NCBI GenBank assembly: GCA_002722055.1
Contig: PBKD01000011.1
Coordinates: forward strand, 64,791-107,330
Direction: 5' to 3'
DNA from: Rhodospirillaceae bacterium
Lineage (GTDB): Bacteria > Pseudomonadota > Alphaproteobacteria > SHVP01
Length of the DNA: 42,540 nucleotides
Both the position numbers and the translations under genes were made by a program. The notes beneath the pieces were generated by a model. The model saw only the letters and a list, made by a program, of their open reading frames with translations, did no database searches and was not told the origin of the DNA. How positions within the stretch are numbered: the stretch's first letter is position 1; the number at the start of each line of letters is the position of its first letter. Positions 28,646-42,540 of the stretch are shown piece by piece.

Positions 28646-31270
28646 TTAATATCCTAAGTTAGAAGCAAGCCTATTTTCTATAGATTGAACAGGTGAACCT
28701 ATACGTTTTGCATAATCCTCTATTTGATCCCTACCAATCCTGCCAATACCAAAATAACGAGATTCTGGATGACTAAAATAAATACCAGCTACCGATGAGG
28801 CAGGATACATCGCATAATTTTCAGTCAAATTTACACCTATAGATTTTTCTACATCTAGAAAATCAAATATTTGCTTTTTTTGATAATGATCTGGACAAGC
28901 AGGATAACCTGGAGCTGGACGAATTCCAACATAATCCTCATTAATAATTTGAGAATTATTGAAGTTTTCTTCACTTGAAAATCCCCAAAATTCTTTTCTA
29001 ACTTTTTCATGCATTCTTTCTGCAAAAGCTTCTGCAAGTCTATCAGCTAAGGCTTTAATCATAATATCATTATAGTCATCGTAATCTCTTTTAAATTCTT
29101 CAATTTTATTTTCAATGTTAATTCCAGTGGTTACCACAAAAAAACCAACATAGTCTTTTATGCCCGATTTTTCTGGTGCAATAAAATCAGCAAGACACAA
29201 ATTTGATTTATCTGAATTTCTAATCATTTGCTGTCTCAAGAAATTAAGTACCATCTTCTTTTTTCTCTTACCTTCATTTGAATAAACTAAAATATCATCA
29301 TTTATAGAATTTGAAGGAAAAAAACCAATCATTGCTTTTGCGTGAAGCCATTTATCATTAATTATTTGATCTAACATTTTCTGCGCATCATTGAAGAGGG
29401 AGTTAGCCGCCTCACCTACTTTAATGTCACTAAGAATATTTGGAAATTTACCAACTAGTTCCCAGGTGCGAAAAAATGGAGTCCAATCTATTCTATTCAC
29501 AAGATCACTTAATTCATAGCTTTCAAAAATTTTTGTTCCAATAAAAGTAGGTTTAGTAATTTTTGTCTCTTTCCAATCAATCTTGAAACTATTTTCTCTA
29601 GCTACTTCTATAGAGGCTAATTTTTTAATATTTCTATTTAAATATTTCTCTCTTAGTTTTGCATATTCATTTTTATGATAATTAATAAGACTATTCTTTT
29701 TCTCATCACTAACTAAGTCATTAACTATCGGGACAGATCTAGATGCATCAACAACATGTAAAGTAGGTCCTAAATATTTATCTGCTATTTTAACTGCAGT
29801 ATGAATTTTTGATGTGGTAGCCCCTCCAATCAAAAGAGGTATACTAAGTTTTTTTAAATTCATTTGAGAAGCTACATATTGCATCTCATCCAAGGATGGT
29901 GTTATTAACCCTGATAAACCTATGATATCAACATCATTTTTAATTGCTTCTTCAATAATTTTTGATGCATGCACCATTACCCCAAGATCAATTACCTCGA
30001 AATTATTACATTGCAAAACTACGCCAACAATATTTTTACCTATGTCGTGAACGTCACCTTTAACTGTAGCCAGAAGCACTTTACCTTTAGTTTTTTTAGC
30101 TGAAGTTGAGTTCTTCTCAATAAATGGAAGCAAGTATGAAACCGCTTGCTTCATTACTCTCGCACTCTTTACAACTTGAGGTAAAAACATCTTTCCAGAA
30201 CCAAATAGATCACCAACTTCATTCATACCATCCATCAAGGGGCCTTCAATAACCTCTATAGGATTATTACTGGTTTTTCTAGCTTCCTCAGTATCGTCAA
30301 TTATGTAATCAGATATACCCCTTATTAAGCTATACGAAATTCTTTCCTTAATTTCTGATGACCTCCACAAAGAACTCTCTTTTTTTGATTTTTTTCCCTT
30401 TAATTTATACTCTTGAGCAATGTCTAGCAGTCTTTCAGTTGCGTCGGGACGTTTATTTAAAATAACATCCTCAACCCTGTCCCTTAATTTTATCGGTATA
30501 TCTTCGTAAACAATTAATTGACCTGCATTCACTATACCCATATCAAGTCCTGCTCCAATAGCATGGTAAAGAAAAACAGAATGCATAGCTTCTCTTACTT
30601 GATTATTCCCCCTAAAACTAAAAGATATATTTGAAATACCACCTGAGACATAACTAAAATCTAAATTACTTTTTATTTTTTTAGTAGCTTCAATAAATTC
30701 TACCGCATAGTTGTTATGTTGTTCAATACCCGTAGCAACTGCAAAAATATTAGGATCAAAAATTATATCTTGAGGGGAGAAGTTTACTTCATTAATTAAA
30801 ATATTATATGCGCGTTCACAAATTTCATACTTTCTTAAAGCCGTTTCTGCTTGACCCTCTTCATCAAAAGCCATAACAACAACTGCACTGCCATATAGTT
30901 TTACTAGATTCGCTTGTTCTTTAAATATTTGCTCACCTTCTTTTAAACTAATTGAATTAACAATAGACTTTCCCTGCAAACATTTAAGACCTGCCTCTAT
31001 AACATTCCATTTAGATGAATCAATCATTATTGGGACTCTGGATATATCTGGTTCTGAAGAAACTAGATTTAAAAACTTCTTCATGGCTTTTTCCGAGTCC
31101 AACATACCCTCATCCATATTTATATCAATTATTTGAGCACCATTCTCTACCTGATCTCTAGCAACCTTAAGTGCCTCTAAATAATTTTCTTCTTCAATCA
31201 GTTTCCTAAATTTTGCTGATCCAGTAACATTAGTTCTTTCACCTATATTTATAAAACTACCTATCGTCAT
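28646..31270 (-). CDS. metH: Methionine synthase, folate/cobalamin/activation part (split MetH)
   Basis: This is the part of cobalamin-dependent methionine synthase that takes the methyl group from 5-methyltetrahydrofolate, carries it on B12 and reactivates the cofactor. Domains in 874 residues: a pterin-binding barrel from about 5 to 280 ([15 protein letters not shown]), the B12 cap near 310-385, and the B12-binding domain with DVHDIG (Asp406, His408, Gly411; His408 is the cobalt ligand). The AdoMet-binding activation domain ends the protein, with RPAPGYP at 784-790 and [17 protein letters not shown]. The homocysteine domain is absent; it is encoded by the upstream ORF, whose stop overlaps this ATG as ATGA. 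The two are clearly a split enzyme, not a frameshift, as both have proper start and stop signals. Confidence 0.95.
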
Positions 31271-32331
31271 GAGAGTATTCCAAAAGGTTCTAAACCTGAA
31301 AGCTTTAAAGTTTTTTCTATTTTGGGAACAGCCCTTGGGCTGAATCTAGAAACTTCTTTAGAGATTCTATTTATGTGTTCTGGAGTTGTCCCACAACAAC
31401 CGCCTACAATATTGATAATTCCATTTTTTGCCCATTGGGCAAGATATGAAGCCGTTAATTCAGGGGTTTCATCATATTCCCCCATTGGATTTGGCAAACC
31501 CGCATTTGGATAAGCCAAAATATTTGTATCTGCAACTCTCGATAACTCTTCTAAAGCAGGTGTTAAGCGTTCCGCACCAAATGAACAGTTTAAACCTATG
31601 GATAATGGCTCAGCATGTTTAACCGAATTCCAAAAAGCTTCTACTGTTTGTCCCGATAAATTTCTACCTGAAAAATCTGTAATTGTTCCAGAAATCATAA
31701 GTGGAATCTTATAGGTTCTTTTCTGGTTTATTTCCCCTATCGCAAATATTCCTGCTTTTGCATTTAATGTATCAAAGATTGTTTCCAGAATTAAGAAATC
31801 AACACCCCCATCAATAAGAGAAATAGCTGCTTCTTTATATACATCCTTAAGCTCATCAAAAGATACGTTTCTATATGCAGGATCATCAACTTTAGGAGAT
31901 ATAGATGCAGTTTTATTTGTTGGACCAATAGCACCAGCAACAAACCTAATTTTTTCTGGATTTTTGTCTGAGAATTTATCAGCAACCTTTCGAGCTAGTA
32001 ATGCAGCACTATAATTCATCTCTGTTGAGTGATCCTCTAAACCATAATCAGATTGTGAAATTTTGTTTGAGTTAAACGTATTAGTTAAAATTATATCAGC
32101 ACCAGAATCAAGAAACGCACTATGAACATCACTTATAACTTTACTATTTGTAATATTTAATACGTCTCCATTTCCCTTTAGATCAATTGACCAATTTTTG
32201 AATCTTGAATTCCTAAAATCGCTCTCACTCAAATTTTTCTTTTGAATCATTGTGCCCATTGCACCATCCATAATTAATATTCTTTTATTTAAGTAATTAA
32301 GTAAATTATTAATTCGATTCTTTTGGGACAT
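31267..32331 (-). CDS. metH: Methionine synthase, homocysteine-binding part (split MetH)
   Basis: This ORF supplies the zinc-dependent homocysteine-activating barrel of methionine synthase. In 354 residues it has [11 protein letters not shown] near the N-terminus, the first zinc Cys at residue 249 (GLNCSFGAE), and the Cys pair at 312-313 ([11 protein letters not shown]). All three ligands are in place, so it should be active in trans with the second part. It begins at ATG 32331, overlapping the metF stop as TAATG, and ends with TGA inside the start of part 2. The alternative is a stand-alone homocysteine methyltransferase (BhmT/MmuM), but the overlap with the cobalamin half argues for a divided MetH, an arrangement known in alphaproteobacteria. 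Confidence 0.94.
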
Positions 32332-37248: not shown

Positions 37249-38178
37249 TTATATAAATCTCAATAAACTAAGTGAATTTAGTTGGCTGAAAACTCTAAAA
37301 GATGCCTCTAAAGCAGTTTGATCATTGTTCAATTTGGACACTGCCTCAGCAACGTTTATATTTTCAATATCTGAAATAAATTTATTTACTAACATTATTT
37401 CATTCTCATGCCTAGCAGCTGTTTCTTCTACCAAGCGAGCCGCAACTCCATGCTGAGCCTGAATCAAATTTATTGTATCAAAAGCTATGTCTGCCTCTGG
37501 AAACTTACTGATGACAAATTCTCTTTCACTATCAGTTAAAGGCTTTTCAAAACCTCCTGGAGATGCAGTCGCTGCAATCATTAAATCTTGAAATATGTTA
37601 AATAAATCTGTAGCAACTTCACTGGCAATTACACCATGTGTAATTTCTAATCCATCATCAATTAGAGCTGTTGGCCTTATTGAGTTATTAACAAATGCTT
37701 GAGCATGATTACCTGCACCAAGAGCTTCTAAATTCGCAGGAAGAAGACTTTGTACAGGAGCAACATCGGTTCTGGTACCTCCAAATAAGAATCTACCATT
37801 CTCTTTTATATTAAGTAAATTTACTGCATCAGTATATAGATTATCGATTACAGTTTTAAAACCTACACCTCCTCCTGGCTGGCTAGCAGTAATCATTTCT
37901 ATTTTTAGTTGTTTAGCAATATCACTTAAACCTTCTAGAACTATATTTTGAACGTCCGTAATTCTCGAGAGATCTCTATGGGCAATTAAAAATTGTTCAG
38001 ATTTAGACTTAATTGATTTTGCAGCTGCTAGCGCTTGAACATCTAAGGCTAAACCTTGATAATTAGAGGATTTACTTTCACTAGAAATTTGTCTCGTACC
38101 TTCAGCGATTCTTTTCTGGATATCAAAAATATCTGTAAGTAAAAAATCGTTTTGACCTACTGTAGAAATCCTAGTCAT
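37249..38178 (-). CDS. flgL: Flagellar hook-associated protein 3, FlgL
   Basis: FlgL is the second junction protein between hook and filament. The protein has 309 residues and the flagellin-like plan of helical ends around a variable middle. Its N-terminus is MTRISTVGQNDFLLTDIFDIQKRIAEGTRQISSESKSSNYQGLALD, and GRFLFGGTRTDVAP is the conserved FlgL motif. The C-terminal coiled part is AEAVSKLNNDQTALEASFRVFSQLNSLSLLRFI. It follows flgK by 18 bases and is presumably in the same transcript. It could be mistaken for flagellin, but the FLFGGT motif and partner gene settle it as FlgL. Confidence 0.92.
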   Translation of the reverse strand: MTRISTVGQNDFLLTDIFDIQKRIAEGTRQISSESKSSNYQGLALDVQALAAAKSIKSKSEQFLIAHRDLSRITDVQNIVLEGLSDIAKQLKIEMITASQPGGGVGFKTVIDNLYTDAVNLLNIKENGRFLFGGTRTDVAPVQSLLPANLEALGAGNHAQAFVNNSIRPTALIDDGLEITHGVIASEVATDLFNIFQDLMIAATASPGGFEKPLTDSEREFVISKFPEADIAFDTINLIQAQHGVAARLVEETAARHENEIMLVNKFISDIENINVAEAVSKLNNDQTALEASFRVFSQLNSLSLLRFI

Positions 38179-38196
38179 AATTATTCCCTTATATAT

Positions 38197-40353
38197 TTAT
38201 CTTGCTATTGATAATAGCTCTTCAAACATTTCTCTTGTTGTAGCAACTAACCTTGCAGATGCATTAAACGCATTTTGAAATAGAATCATATTTGCTAATT
38301 CTTCATCGATGTTAACACCTGAGTCATTTTTTACTCTTGCAGATAGTTCAGCTTTCAGTGCACTTGAATCCTTATAACGACTTTCAGCTTCTTCTGCTTT
38401 TATGGATAAATCTGACAAAACCATAGCTGCATATTCTTGTAATGATTTTGTGGTAGCTGAAATATCGCCAGCTTCATTAAATGTAATTTTTAAATCTGAT
38501 ATATTTTGAAAAGCCTTAACCCCTCTATTATCACCTACTGTTAAAGCTGGAGCATTTCCTGCTAATGCAGTAGCACTTAAATCTAATTGAGCTAAGGATA
38601 AATTAGTTGCATTATCAATAATATCTGATCTTACTGATACTCCAAAGGCCTGATCTATTTTAGAGCTTCTTGCTAAGCCAAATAAATTTGATAATGACTT
38701 ATTAGTTCCTCCTCTCAAACTAGTATCAGTATTTGAAGAAAAATGATAATTTTTTAAATTTGCAGCAGGTGTTCCACTAAGTTTTCCATTTGAATCTAAA
38801 GAAAATGTTGCAAAACCTGTAAATGCAGAGTTAAGAGAATTGACTATGTCTTCAAATGTTGTAGCACCTGCCGTTGCAAAGTCGAAGTTAAAGCTTTTTA
38901 TATTTTGACCCCTCGGGCCTATTAAGTCTAGAGTCATGACTCCTGTGGAACCGAATCCATGGGCATCAGAACCTTGAAACCCTGTTTCAAAATGTGATGG
39001 TGAGTTTGATTGAAGTAAATCATTCAATCCAAAATAATCTGCAAAACCTCTTCCTGCTCTACTACTTGGGGAATCTGTATCTTGTAAAATTGCAACACCA
39101 GTTCCAGTGGCAGCTTGAAGAGATAACTTACCACTTACGAGAGAAAGTGCTGTTGCACCAAATTGAGCGTTCACAGCAGTGATAACGTTATTTATAGTAT
39201 TCCCACCTATTGCAGCTGCTGCGCCACCATTCTTTGATACTGTGCCATTTGTGAAGTCAATTAGTACTCTGTCTACAAGAGTATTATTTGCATTTACAGT
39301 TCCTATGGTAACAGAACCTGTAAAGTTATGGTTATCTGTGGATAGTAAACCAACATTTCTTCCAGTAAAAAGCGCAGGAGGCGGCACAGGAGAACTGTTA
39401 TTATGAACTGAATTAAATTTATCAATAACTTTTGATGATAATTCTCCTAAAGATAATAGCATATTCGGAATTTGCACATCTCTCATATCAAGAAGGCCAA
39501 AAACACTTCCAGAGGTAATAAATGGATCAAGAACATCTACTTGAGCAGTTGTTCCGTCAGTATTAATTTTTTGGATTTTTATCTGCTCAAATTCTGTAGA
39601 ACTTGTAATTGTGCCTACAGATGAATAATCTAATTTTCTGTCTAGGTGATCCAAGAGAACTTGCCCTCTTCCAGTGGTAATTCCTATAGCACCTCCATCC
39701 ATCTCAAAAGTTGTTATGTCAACAAATTCAGATAATTTTTTTATAGAAATATCTCTTTGTTCAATAAGTGTAGTTGTATCATCACCGAGACTCAGGCCTT
39801 TAACTATTTTTGGGTTTAGTTGACTCACGACATTAATCTCAGAATTTATCTTCGCAAGAGCTTGCTCAATCCTTACATCTGCATCACGTCTTAAATCCTG
39901 AAGTAATTTGGAAACACGGTTTATTTCATCACTAAAATCTTTCAACTTATTTACCGCAGTAACTCTTGGCACAGCTCCTGAAGGATCAACGGCAAGCCCA
40001 GTTATTTCTCGAAAAGCTCTATCCAGTTGACCAGTAAATGTTAAATCATCCTTAGGGGAACCTAAAAGTGATTGAAATTGTTCGTGTATCAATTTCATAG
40101 ACTCAAATCGTTTTTCCTGAGCAATAACAGTTCTTTCTTCATTTACAAGAAATCTATTTATAGCCCTTGTAGCAGGAGAAGCTGAGACTCCTACAGGATT
40201 TCCACCTAAAACTTTTGACTCAAAACCTACATTTCTTTTAACATAACCATCAGTATTTACATTTGCAATATTATTGGATGTCGTGTTTAGGGCAACTTGG
40301 TTGGCTTGCAACCCTGAAACACCTGTCCTTAAAACAGAGTCAAGGCTAACCAT
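38197..40353 (-). CDS. flgK: Flagellar hook-associated protein 1, FlgK
   Basis: FlgK forms the first hook-filament junction layer. The N-terminus, TGVSGLQANQVALNTTSNNIANVNTDGYVKRNV, is the flagellar rod/hook motif. The C-terminus (GVNIDEELANMILFQNAFNASARLVATTREMFEELLSI) is the matching helix of the family. At 718 residues it is longer than the roughly 550 of enteric FlgK, the extra sequence being a Gly/Asn/Thr-rich middle domain (about residues 330-600). The ATG at 40353 shares bases with the stop of a 33-codon upstream ORF as TAATG. Its own ribosome-binding site is weak, whereas the short ORF has a strong one, so translation may be coupled. A sigma-54-type promoter lies at 40490-40505. Confidence 0.95.
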   Translation of the reverse strand: MVSLDSVLRTGVSGLQANQVALNTTSNNIANVNTDGYVKRNVGFESKVLGGNPVGVSASPATRAINRFLVNEERTVIAQEKRFESMKLIHEQFQSLLGSPKDDLTFTGQLDRAFREITGLAVDPSGAVPRVTAVNKLKDFSDEINRVSKLLQDLRRDADVRIEQALAKINSEINVVSQLNPKIVKGLSLGDDTTTLIEQRDISIKKLSEFVDITTFEMDGGAIGITTGRGQVLLDHLDRKLDYSSVGTITSSTEFEQIKIQKINTDGTTAQVDVLDPFITSGSVFGLLDMRDVQIPNMLLSLGELSSKVIDKFNSVHNNSSPVPPPALFTGRNVGLLSTDNHNFTGSVTIGTVNANNTLVDRVLIDFTNGTVSKNGGAAAAIGGNTINNVITAVNAQFGATALSLVSGKLSLQAATGTGVAILQDTDSPSSRAGRGFADYFGLNDLLQSNSPSHFETGFQGSDAHGFGSTGVMTLDLIGPRGQNIKSFNFDFATAGATTFEDIVNSLNSAFTGFATFSLDSNGKLSGTPAANLKNYHFSSNTDTSLRGGTNKSLSNLFGLARSSKIDQAFGVSVRSDIIDNATNLSLAQLDLSATALAGNAPALTVGDNRGVKAFQNISDLKITFNEAGDISATTKSLQEYAAMVLSDLSIKAEEAESRYKDSSALKAELSARVKNDSGVNIDEELANMILFQNAFNASARLVATTREMFEELLSIAR

Positions 40354-40554: not shown

Positions 40555-41271
40555 TTACTCAGTCTCTAAATCGTTTATTACTTCTTTTAAGGTTTCTAGG
40601 TTTTCTTTAGCTAATTCATGCCCTTGGTCTGCCGCCTTAGAAAACAAGTCATAAGCTTTCTCAATATCTGCAGATCCATTTGCTCCCGTAGCATATAATA
40701 CTCCAAGATTGTATTGAGCTGGTGATAGTCCTGCATCTGCAGCAATAGTATAAAGGGTTATTGCTCTCTTTATATCTGTCTCTAGGCCTGTTCCATTTTC
40801 ACATAAAACACCTAAATTAAATATCGCAACAACATAACCTAGCTCAGCTGCTTGACTATACAGTTCAACGGCACGAAGATAATCTCGTGTAACACCTTCT
40901 CCACTTTCATATAATGAACCAAGATTACATTGAGCCTGTGGGTGATTTTTTTCTGCTGCTCGATGATACCAGTATGCTGCTTCCGCTGGATCCTCTTCAA
41001 CACCAAATCCCATATTATATAAAACCCCTAGGCTGTATTCGGCCTCTGTATGCTCTTCATCTGCGGCTTTATTAAAATAGTAATGGGCTTTTTCATAACA
41101 TCTTTCGATACCAGTACCATTTGCATACATCAAACCTAGGTTATAGCAAGCTTCAATATTATTATCTTCAGCAGCTCTTTCCCATACAGAATGGGCTTTT
41201 TCAAAGTCTTTAGCATAAAAAGCATTTGCACCTTTATCAAAATTTATTTGGGCTTCCTCATGGGCAAGCAT
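40555..41271 (-). CDS. Sel1-repeat (TPR-like) protein in flagellar region
   Basis: The 238-residue protein is built almost entirely of five tandem 36-residue Sel1-like repeats at about residues 39-74, 75-110, 111-146, 147-182 and 183-218. Each follows the pattern A-x-x-x-L-G-x-x-Y-x-x-G-x-G ... A-x-x-Y/L-x-x-A-A-(D/E). A TPR-like N-terminal helix pair precedes them. There is no signal peptide, so it is probably a cytoplasmic scaffold. Its neighbours are flgK-flgL and a FliK-like ORF, and a sigma-54-type element lies upstream, so a role in flagellar assembly or its regulation is plausible but inferred. The ATG at 41271 has AAGGA about 9 bases upstream. The gene ends in a clear terminator. The precise function is unknown. 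Confidence 0.85.
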   Translation of the reverse strand: MLAHEEAQINFDKGANAFYAKDFEKAHSVWERAAEDNNIEACYNLGLMYANGTGIERCYEKAHYYFNKAADEEHTEAEYSLGVLYNMGFGVEEDPAEAAYWYHRAAEKNHPQAQCNLGSLYESGEGVTRDYLRAVELYSQAAELGYVVAIFNLGVLCENGTGLETDIKRAITLYTIAADAGLSPAQYNLGVLYATGANGSADIEKAYDLFSKAADQGHELAKENLETLKEVINDLETE

Positions 41272-41610: not shown

Positions 41611-42540
41611 ATGACTATCGAAAATATATATATACCAGAGTTTGGTAAAAAAAATATTAAAAATACTGAGAAATCAGTTTTTTCTGATGACTTAAATAAT
41701 GACAAATTTAAGGATATCTTGAAAGAAAATGATTTCAATCTTAGAGAGAATGGTCATTCTTCTAAATATTCAAACATTAGAGAAAATAAAAAAGATAAAG
41801 AACATAAATATACTGATAGAGAAAACCCATCTCACAAAGAAGTAAGTCTAGAAAATATTACTATTAGTGATAAAAGTCATGAATCAAAAGAAGGCTCTTT
41901 ATCAGATGAAAAAGATAACCAAAGCGACCAATCTATTCAAAAAGAAAATACCTATATTTCTAATGAAGAAAATTATTATGAAAAAGATAATAATATAATC
42001 AGTGAAAAAAATATTAACGATACCCAAAATAAATTAAAGACTAATAAATCTGATGATAGTCAAAAGATAGAAACTAATAATGAAAACCAAGCGAAAGAAA
42101 GTAAAAATATAACTACTTCAGAAGGTTCTATTGATAAAGGTTCTATTGATAAAAAGACTCCTACTGATAGTATAAACCAACAAAATATATTTATGAAAGA
42201 ATCAAACATTGGCAATGAAATTAAAGGGGAAAACCTAAATATCATTCAATCTGATAAGATAAATATACCTGTTGAACAACTCGTAAATTTACTTAATCAA
42301 GCTCAACAGCAGCTAACAACTCCAGCAGAAGTTAGCCAACCTTTAGAAAATCAAACAGCTAAACCTGTTGAACAACTTGTAAATTTACTTAATCAAGCTC
42401 AACAACAGCTAACAACTCCAGCAGAAGTTAGCCAACCTTTAGAAAATCAAACAGCTAAACCTGTTGAACAACTCGTAAATTTACTTAATCAAGCTCAACA
42501 GCAGCTAACAACTCCAGCAGAAGTTAGCCAACCTTTAGAA
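41611..42540 (+). CDS. FliK-like repeat protein, N-terminal part (runs off window)
   Basis: I read this ORF directly: ATG at 41611 and 310 open codons to the window edge. Residues 1 to about 219 are low-complexity and very hydrophilic (Lys, Asn, Asp, Glu, Ser). From residue 220 a 32-residue unit is repeated at least 2.8 times; it begins PVEQLVNLLNQAQQQL and continues TTPAEVSQPLENQTAK. Gln/Pro/Thr-rich N-terminal halves are typical of FliK, the secreted ruler that sets hook length. The setting beside flgK, flgL and a sigma-54 element supports this, but the diagnostic C-terminal hook-length domain lies outside the window. No ribosome-binding site precedes the ATG. Another secreted repeat protein is the main alternative. 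Confidence 0.6.
   Translation, partial: MTIENIYIPEFGKKNIKNTEKSVFSDDLNNDKFKDILKENDFNLRENGHSSKYSNIRENKKDKEHKYTDRENPSHKEVSLENITISDKSHESKEGSLSDEKDNQSDQSIQKENTYISNEENYYEKDNNIISEKNINDTQNKLKTNKSDDSQKIETNNENQAKESKNITTSEGSIDKGSIDKKTPTDSINQQNIFMKESNIGNEIKGENLNIIQSDKINIPVEQLVNLLNQAQQQLTTPAEVSQPLENQTAKPVEQLVNLLNQAQQQLTTPAEVSQPLENQTAKPVEQLVNLLNQAQQQLTTPAEVSQPLE
42124..42153 (+). repeat. 15-bp tandem duplication inside the FliK-like ORF
   Basis: GGTTCTATTGATAAA occurs twice in direct succession (42124-42138 and 42139-42153), encoding GSIDK twice and preserving the frame. It is a second, smaller sign of in-frame slippage in this gene. Confidence 0.85.
42268..42540 (+). repeat. 96-bp near-identical tandem repeats (32 residues each)
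   Basis: Units begin at 42268, 42364 and 42460, each 96 bases, and the third is cut by the window end. Over the compared stretch, units 1 and 3 are identical. Unit 2 differs at two third-codon positions (CTC/CTT and CAG/CAA), both silent. The period is a multiple of three, so copy-number change would keep the frame. The array lies in the FliK-like ORF and may extend further. Confidence 0.95.

Follow-up and report, generated by a model that had tools for sequence, protein, structure and literature searches.

An in-frame 96-bp repeat array in fliK, the putative hook-length ruler gene of an uncultured marine alphaproteobacterium

The DNA analysed here (the window, 42,540 nt, corresponding to G000:C11:64791-107330) closes on an open reading frame that enters a tandem repeat and is still open where the contig ends, which raises the question of whether this frame is the first part of fliK, the gene for the flagellar hook-length ruler, and, if so, what a changing number of repeat units would mean for the length of the hook.

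The array itself is readily described. It occupies positions 42267-42540, consists of about 2.85-2.9 units of 96 bp (32 aa) with 97% matches and no indels, and is the strongest in the window as judged by TRF (score 534). The reading frame in the ORF list runs across it uninterrupted. Comparison of the units confirms what the original prediction had read from the letters, as units 1 and 3, at 42267-42362 and 42459-42540 when counted from the start of the array, are identical over 82 bp, and unit 2, at 42363-42458, departs from unit 1 only by two silent changes, C>T at position 16 of the unit and G>A at position 43. A chance origin can be excluded because the repeated 40-mers of the window are confined to the 96-bp array. 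Upstream of the array, the same gene also contains a perfect 15-bp duplication, encoding GSIDK twice (42122-42153, + strand).

Identity of the gene and its continuation on a second contig

Contig C11 stops at base 107330, inside the array. Elsewhere in the 2.16-Mb genome a search places the unit only at C14:1-80, where that contig begins with the tail of one unit and a further copy of 57-58 bp, followed by an open frame of 411 codons. The last 8 bases of C11 are the first 8 of C14, and the minimal join over them is in frame and yields a protein of 719 aa with four copies of a predicted helix motif, to be read as at least four since the array is interrupted by the assembly gap. An estimate of unit number from assembly k-mer geometry was dropped as unreliable. 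We infer that the two halves, between which no contig spans the join, belong to one gene: the repeat is found only at the two contig ends, the frame is kept, and the same arrangement occurs in a sister species, G002.

The half-gene on C14 carries a Flg_hook domain (PF02120) at C14:846-1094, with an E-value of 2.8e-14 and 49.5 bits against a Pfam cut-off of 29.8 bits (the genome search gave 53.8 bits), and it is followed by flgD and then by a flgE-type frame homologous to the flgE-type protein of G002; a flgE-type frame lies downstream of fliK in both species. Since the C14 half starts in the same repeat, in frame, and has both this domain and these neighbours, identification of the repeat-bearing protein as FliK is supported at the level of sequence. 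The assignment had earlier been made from context and composition, with the suggestion that the hook domain be sought downstream, and it is there that the domain was found. FlhB is the switch partner of FliK, and the genome encodes one FlhB homologue. A match of the N-terminal half to a pyroglutamyl-peptidase model of NCBIfam (20.8 bits against a cut-off of 271) was rejected as a composition artefact.

The features of the locus are collected in Table 1. Between flgK and fliK, and divergent from fliK, lies a gene for a Sel1-repeat protein (40555-41271, - strand) that is retained in each of the three genomes from this genus. Farther away in the window, two adjacent overlapping frames (28646-32331, - strand) resemble, when read by eye, the halves of metH (methionine synthase); they adjoin what by the same reading are a methylenetetrahydrofolate reductase-like gene and an ArsR-methyltransferase fusion.

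Table 1. Coordinates of the flagellar genes and repeat features in the window
Feature	Position	Strand	Basis
flgL-like gene	37249..38178	-	Pfam Flagellin_C; position beside flgK suggests FlgL
flgK	38197..40353	-	Pfam FlgK_D1, Flg_bb_rod, Flg_bbr_C
fliK 5' part, 310 codons, open at contig end (3' part, C14:3-1238)	41611..42540	+	ORF list; Flg_hook on C14
Conserved N-terminus MTIENIYIPEFGKK, probable export signal	41611..41652	+	14/15-identity windows between two species; present in G001
Repeat unit 1, 32 aa, PVEQLVNLLNQAQQQLTTPAEVSQPLENQTAK	42268..42363	+	TRF and unit comparison
Predicted helix VEQLVNLLNQAQQQL, conserved, in unit 1 and recurring every 96 bp	42271..42315	+	14/15 identity to sister species; low-confidence helix prediction
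Repeat unit 2, two silent differences	42364..42459	+	Unit comparison
Repeat unit 3, identical to unit 1, cut by contig end	42460..42540	+	Unit comparison

The array in a sister species

Family- and order-level genome searches led to the same 10 genomes, and a scan of genome contigs returned one match, the sister MAG G002 (MarineAlpha2_Bin1), from a marine lineage placed in the GTDB order GCA-2701885 (PMC8879329). G002 has a homologous 96-bp unit at the same place in fliK, and its gene, too, is split: contigs C57 and C16 each stop within the homologous unit. The overlap of 10 bp between them implies the same 96-bp period, and the minimal join gives 650 aa with two motif copies, the array spanning an assembly gap, so that the unit counts of both species are minima. 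From the start of the last motif onward both proteins have 402 aa, and before the motif they differ by 5 aa; the minimal joins, both of them gapped in the array, thus differ by 69 residues, of which two repeat units make up 64. The fliK of G001, from the same genus, is truncated short of the expected start of the array and is uninformative on this point. Both assemblies are interrupted at one and the same point of the unit (near CCTYTAGAA), the overlaps being 8 bp for C11/C14 and 10 bp for C57/C16, a coincidence that is probably a matter of assembly-graph geometry and not of biology.

Over 51 shared bases, the copies in G000 differ from one another by 0-2 silent changes and the two copies in G002 by 3, whereas units of the two species differ by 11-14, mostly silent, corresponding to an identity of 94-100% within a genome versus about 75-80% between species. 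The copy on C14 is a mosaic that combines the C at position 16 of units 1 and 3 with the A at position 43 of unit 2. Uniformity within each genome and divergence between species, together with this mosaic copy, would be best explained if the array expanded or was homogenised after the species split, in keeping with the earlier suggestion that it is either young or kept uniform by recombination.

Conservation along the protein is uneven. The two species share 43% of residues upstream of the array, 53% in the stretch linking the array to the C-terminal part, and 99% within that last part, tail included (L001:827-1238; homologue in L022). In the helix motif 14 of 15 residues (93%) are shared, and 7 of 14 codons have changed silently. 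The one other region with 15-residue windows at 14/15 identity, if the array and the C-terminal part are set aside, is the extreme N-terminus. In an AlphaFold2 model of the 310 N-terminal residues, which is of low confidence (mean pLDDT 45.7), the chain is disordered save for a helix of 15-19 residues in each unit. A unit comprises a short conserved stretch, predicted at low confidence to be helical, and a proline-containing linker.

Repeat arrays in other FliK proteins

The unit had no match in 384 further genomes from the class, a sample evidently without G002, and in 120 other FliK frames its best scores (47 and 42) were not convincingly above those of shuffled sequences (41). The N-terminal half had no match among the viral contigs scanned. 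Arrays of other kinds were surveyed in a further 126 alphaproteobacterial FliK frames (123 genomes, almost all belonging to different families of the class). Those with a TRF score of at least 100 numbered 10 in 225 kb of FliK frames, against a single one in the 317 kb of DNA flanking them, and those with a score of at least 200 numbered 6 versus 0. Periods in FliK ranged from 15 to 117 bp, and for the indel-free arrays scoring at least 100 all were divisible by three. Unrelated arrays occur, for example, in the frames L108 (G209; 117 bp), L180 (G015; 63 bp), L166 (G180; 27 bp) and L133 (G115; 15 bp). Some are demonstrably specific to a lineage, as G056 lacks the five-copy 27-bp array of its congener G180, and G023 the 42-bp array of its congener G155 (L092). 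In G112, from a different family, the contig again ends inside an array in fliK, here of 1.9 copies of 72 bp that are 98% identical (L181, G112:C10:35964-36101). Unrelated in-frame arrays thus arise repeatedly in alphaproteobacterial FliK, lineage by lineage. FliK is unusually disordered, which makes the flanking genes an imperfect control, and the enrichment may merely reflect a disordered, weakly constrained region.

Ruler length and competing explanations

In Salmonella the N-terminal part of FliK is the ruler and the C-terminal part binds FlhB (PMC6972891), and the hook lengthens linearly by 0.2 nm per residue inserted (PMC6126814). By analogy with these findings and with YscP of Yersinia, it is plausible that repeat number tunes the hook in steps of 32 residues: copies would be added, removed and homogenised by unequal recombination between units or by their misalignment during replication, and each unit would shift the ruler by 32 residues, or about 6 nm of hook (some 6.4 nm if the Salmonella value holds exactly). 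The explanation that we favour, and hold to be probable, is that this is the fliK of an uncultured marine alphaproteobacterium with three or more full units and a fourth copy of 57 bp in an in-frame array, an ordinary minisatellite in a region that tolerates changes in length.

It could be objected that the array lies exactly at a contig end, where copy number is not readable, and that misassembly created or multiplied the repeats. This is hardly credible and largely refuted by the variant units, as unit 2 has two private changes, the C14 copy has a third combination, and the sister species has a homologous unit in the same place with many silent differences; genuine repeats, moreover, break short-read contigs. 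It is a tentative possibility that the repeated helices serve as additional sites to which the hook protein, the hook cap or the export channel binds, in which case copy number would affect binding or the secretion pause and not simply length. Conservation of the 15-residue motif, but not of its surroundings, goes beyond what a pure spacer needs, and in Salmonella the loss of FliK residues 129-159 lowers FlgE binding and lengthens hooks (PMC6972891). However, the helices come from a low-confidence predicted structure, and binding and ruler roles are compatible with each other.

The conserved helix motif also weighs against a neutral minisatellite, one in which a disordered, A+T-rich region accepts in-frame duplications while hook length is not measurably altered. 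The arrays of unrelated sequence and period in the FliK of many lineages speak for such neutrality, but hook length in Salmonella is linear with ruler length (PMC6126814), and we think this explanation unlikely. Still less probable is a dedicated contingency locus, with hook length switching from one generation to the next. Highly identical units in a long direct-repeat array are indeed a recombination-prone type of sequence, yet the units here are few and long and never break the frame, and there is no sign of a regulated mechanism; we are equally doubtful that unit number varies in natural populations so that recombination, and not regulation, adjusts swimming mechanics through hook steps of about 6 nm. 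The array is most likely an ordinary evolving minisatellite and not a dedicated switch. The part of the original prediction that proposed a slippage-based tuning device finds no support here, and units as long as 96 bp would make misalignment or recombination likelier than slippage of the microsatellite type.

No description of repeat-number variation in flagellar FliK was found in the literature searched, although such variation is documented for injectisomes. The kind of phenomenon is known from YscP. A conserved and homogenised unit in a flagellar protein, together with the recurrence of arrays in FliK throughout the class, adds modestly to it. Recurrent lineage-specific arrays would provide natural variants with which the evolution of hook length could be tested. 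Short-read assemblies can also break at such arrays, hiding variation and splitting fliK so that it seems missing or truncated.

Like other members of its family (PF02120), the protein has a C-terminal Flg_hook domain and a gene beside flgD and flgE, and its N-terminal part may, by the low-confidence model, likewise be largely disordered; it differs in its uniform 96-bp array and in its size, at a minimal 719 aa versus 405 in Salmonella, and the class has many large FliK frames, from 399 to about 1,200 aa. Engineered Salmonella variants, in which added ruler residues lengthen the hook (PMC6126814), are similar in principle, but their insertions are not natural repeats. A natural parallel is YscP of the Yersinia injectisome, a secreted length ruler with internal repeats, of 14, 25 and 46 aa, whose number varies among strains (452-538 aa) with needle length linear with protein length (PMC3469391). 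There, copy-number variation is documented at the level of strains, whereas here it is the minimal joins of two species that differ, in a flagellum and with a repeat of another length.
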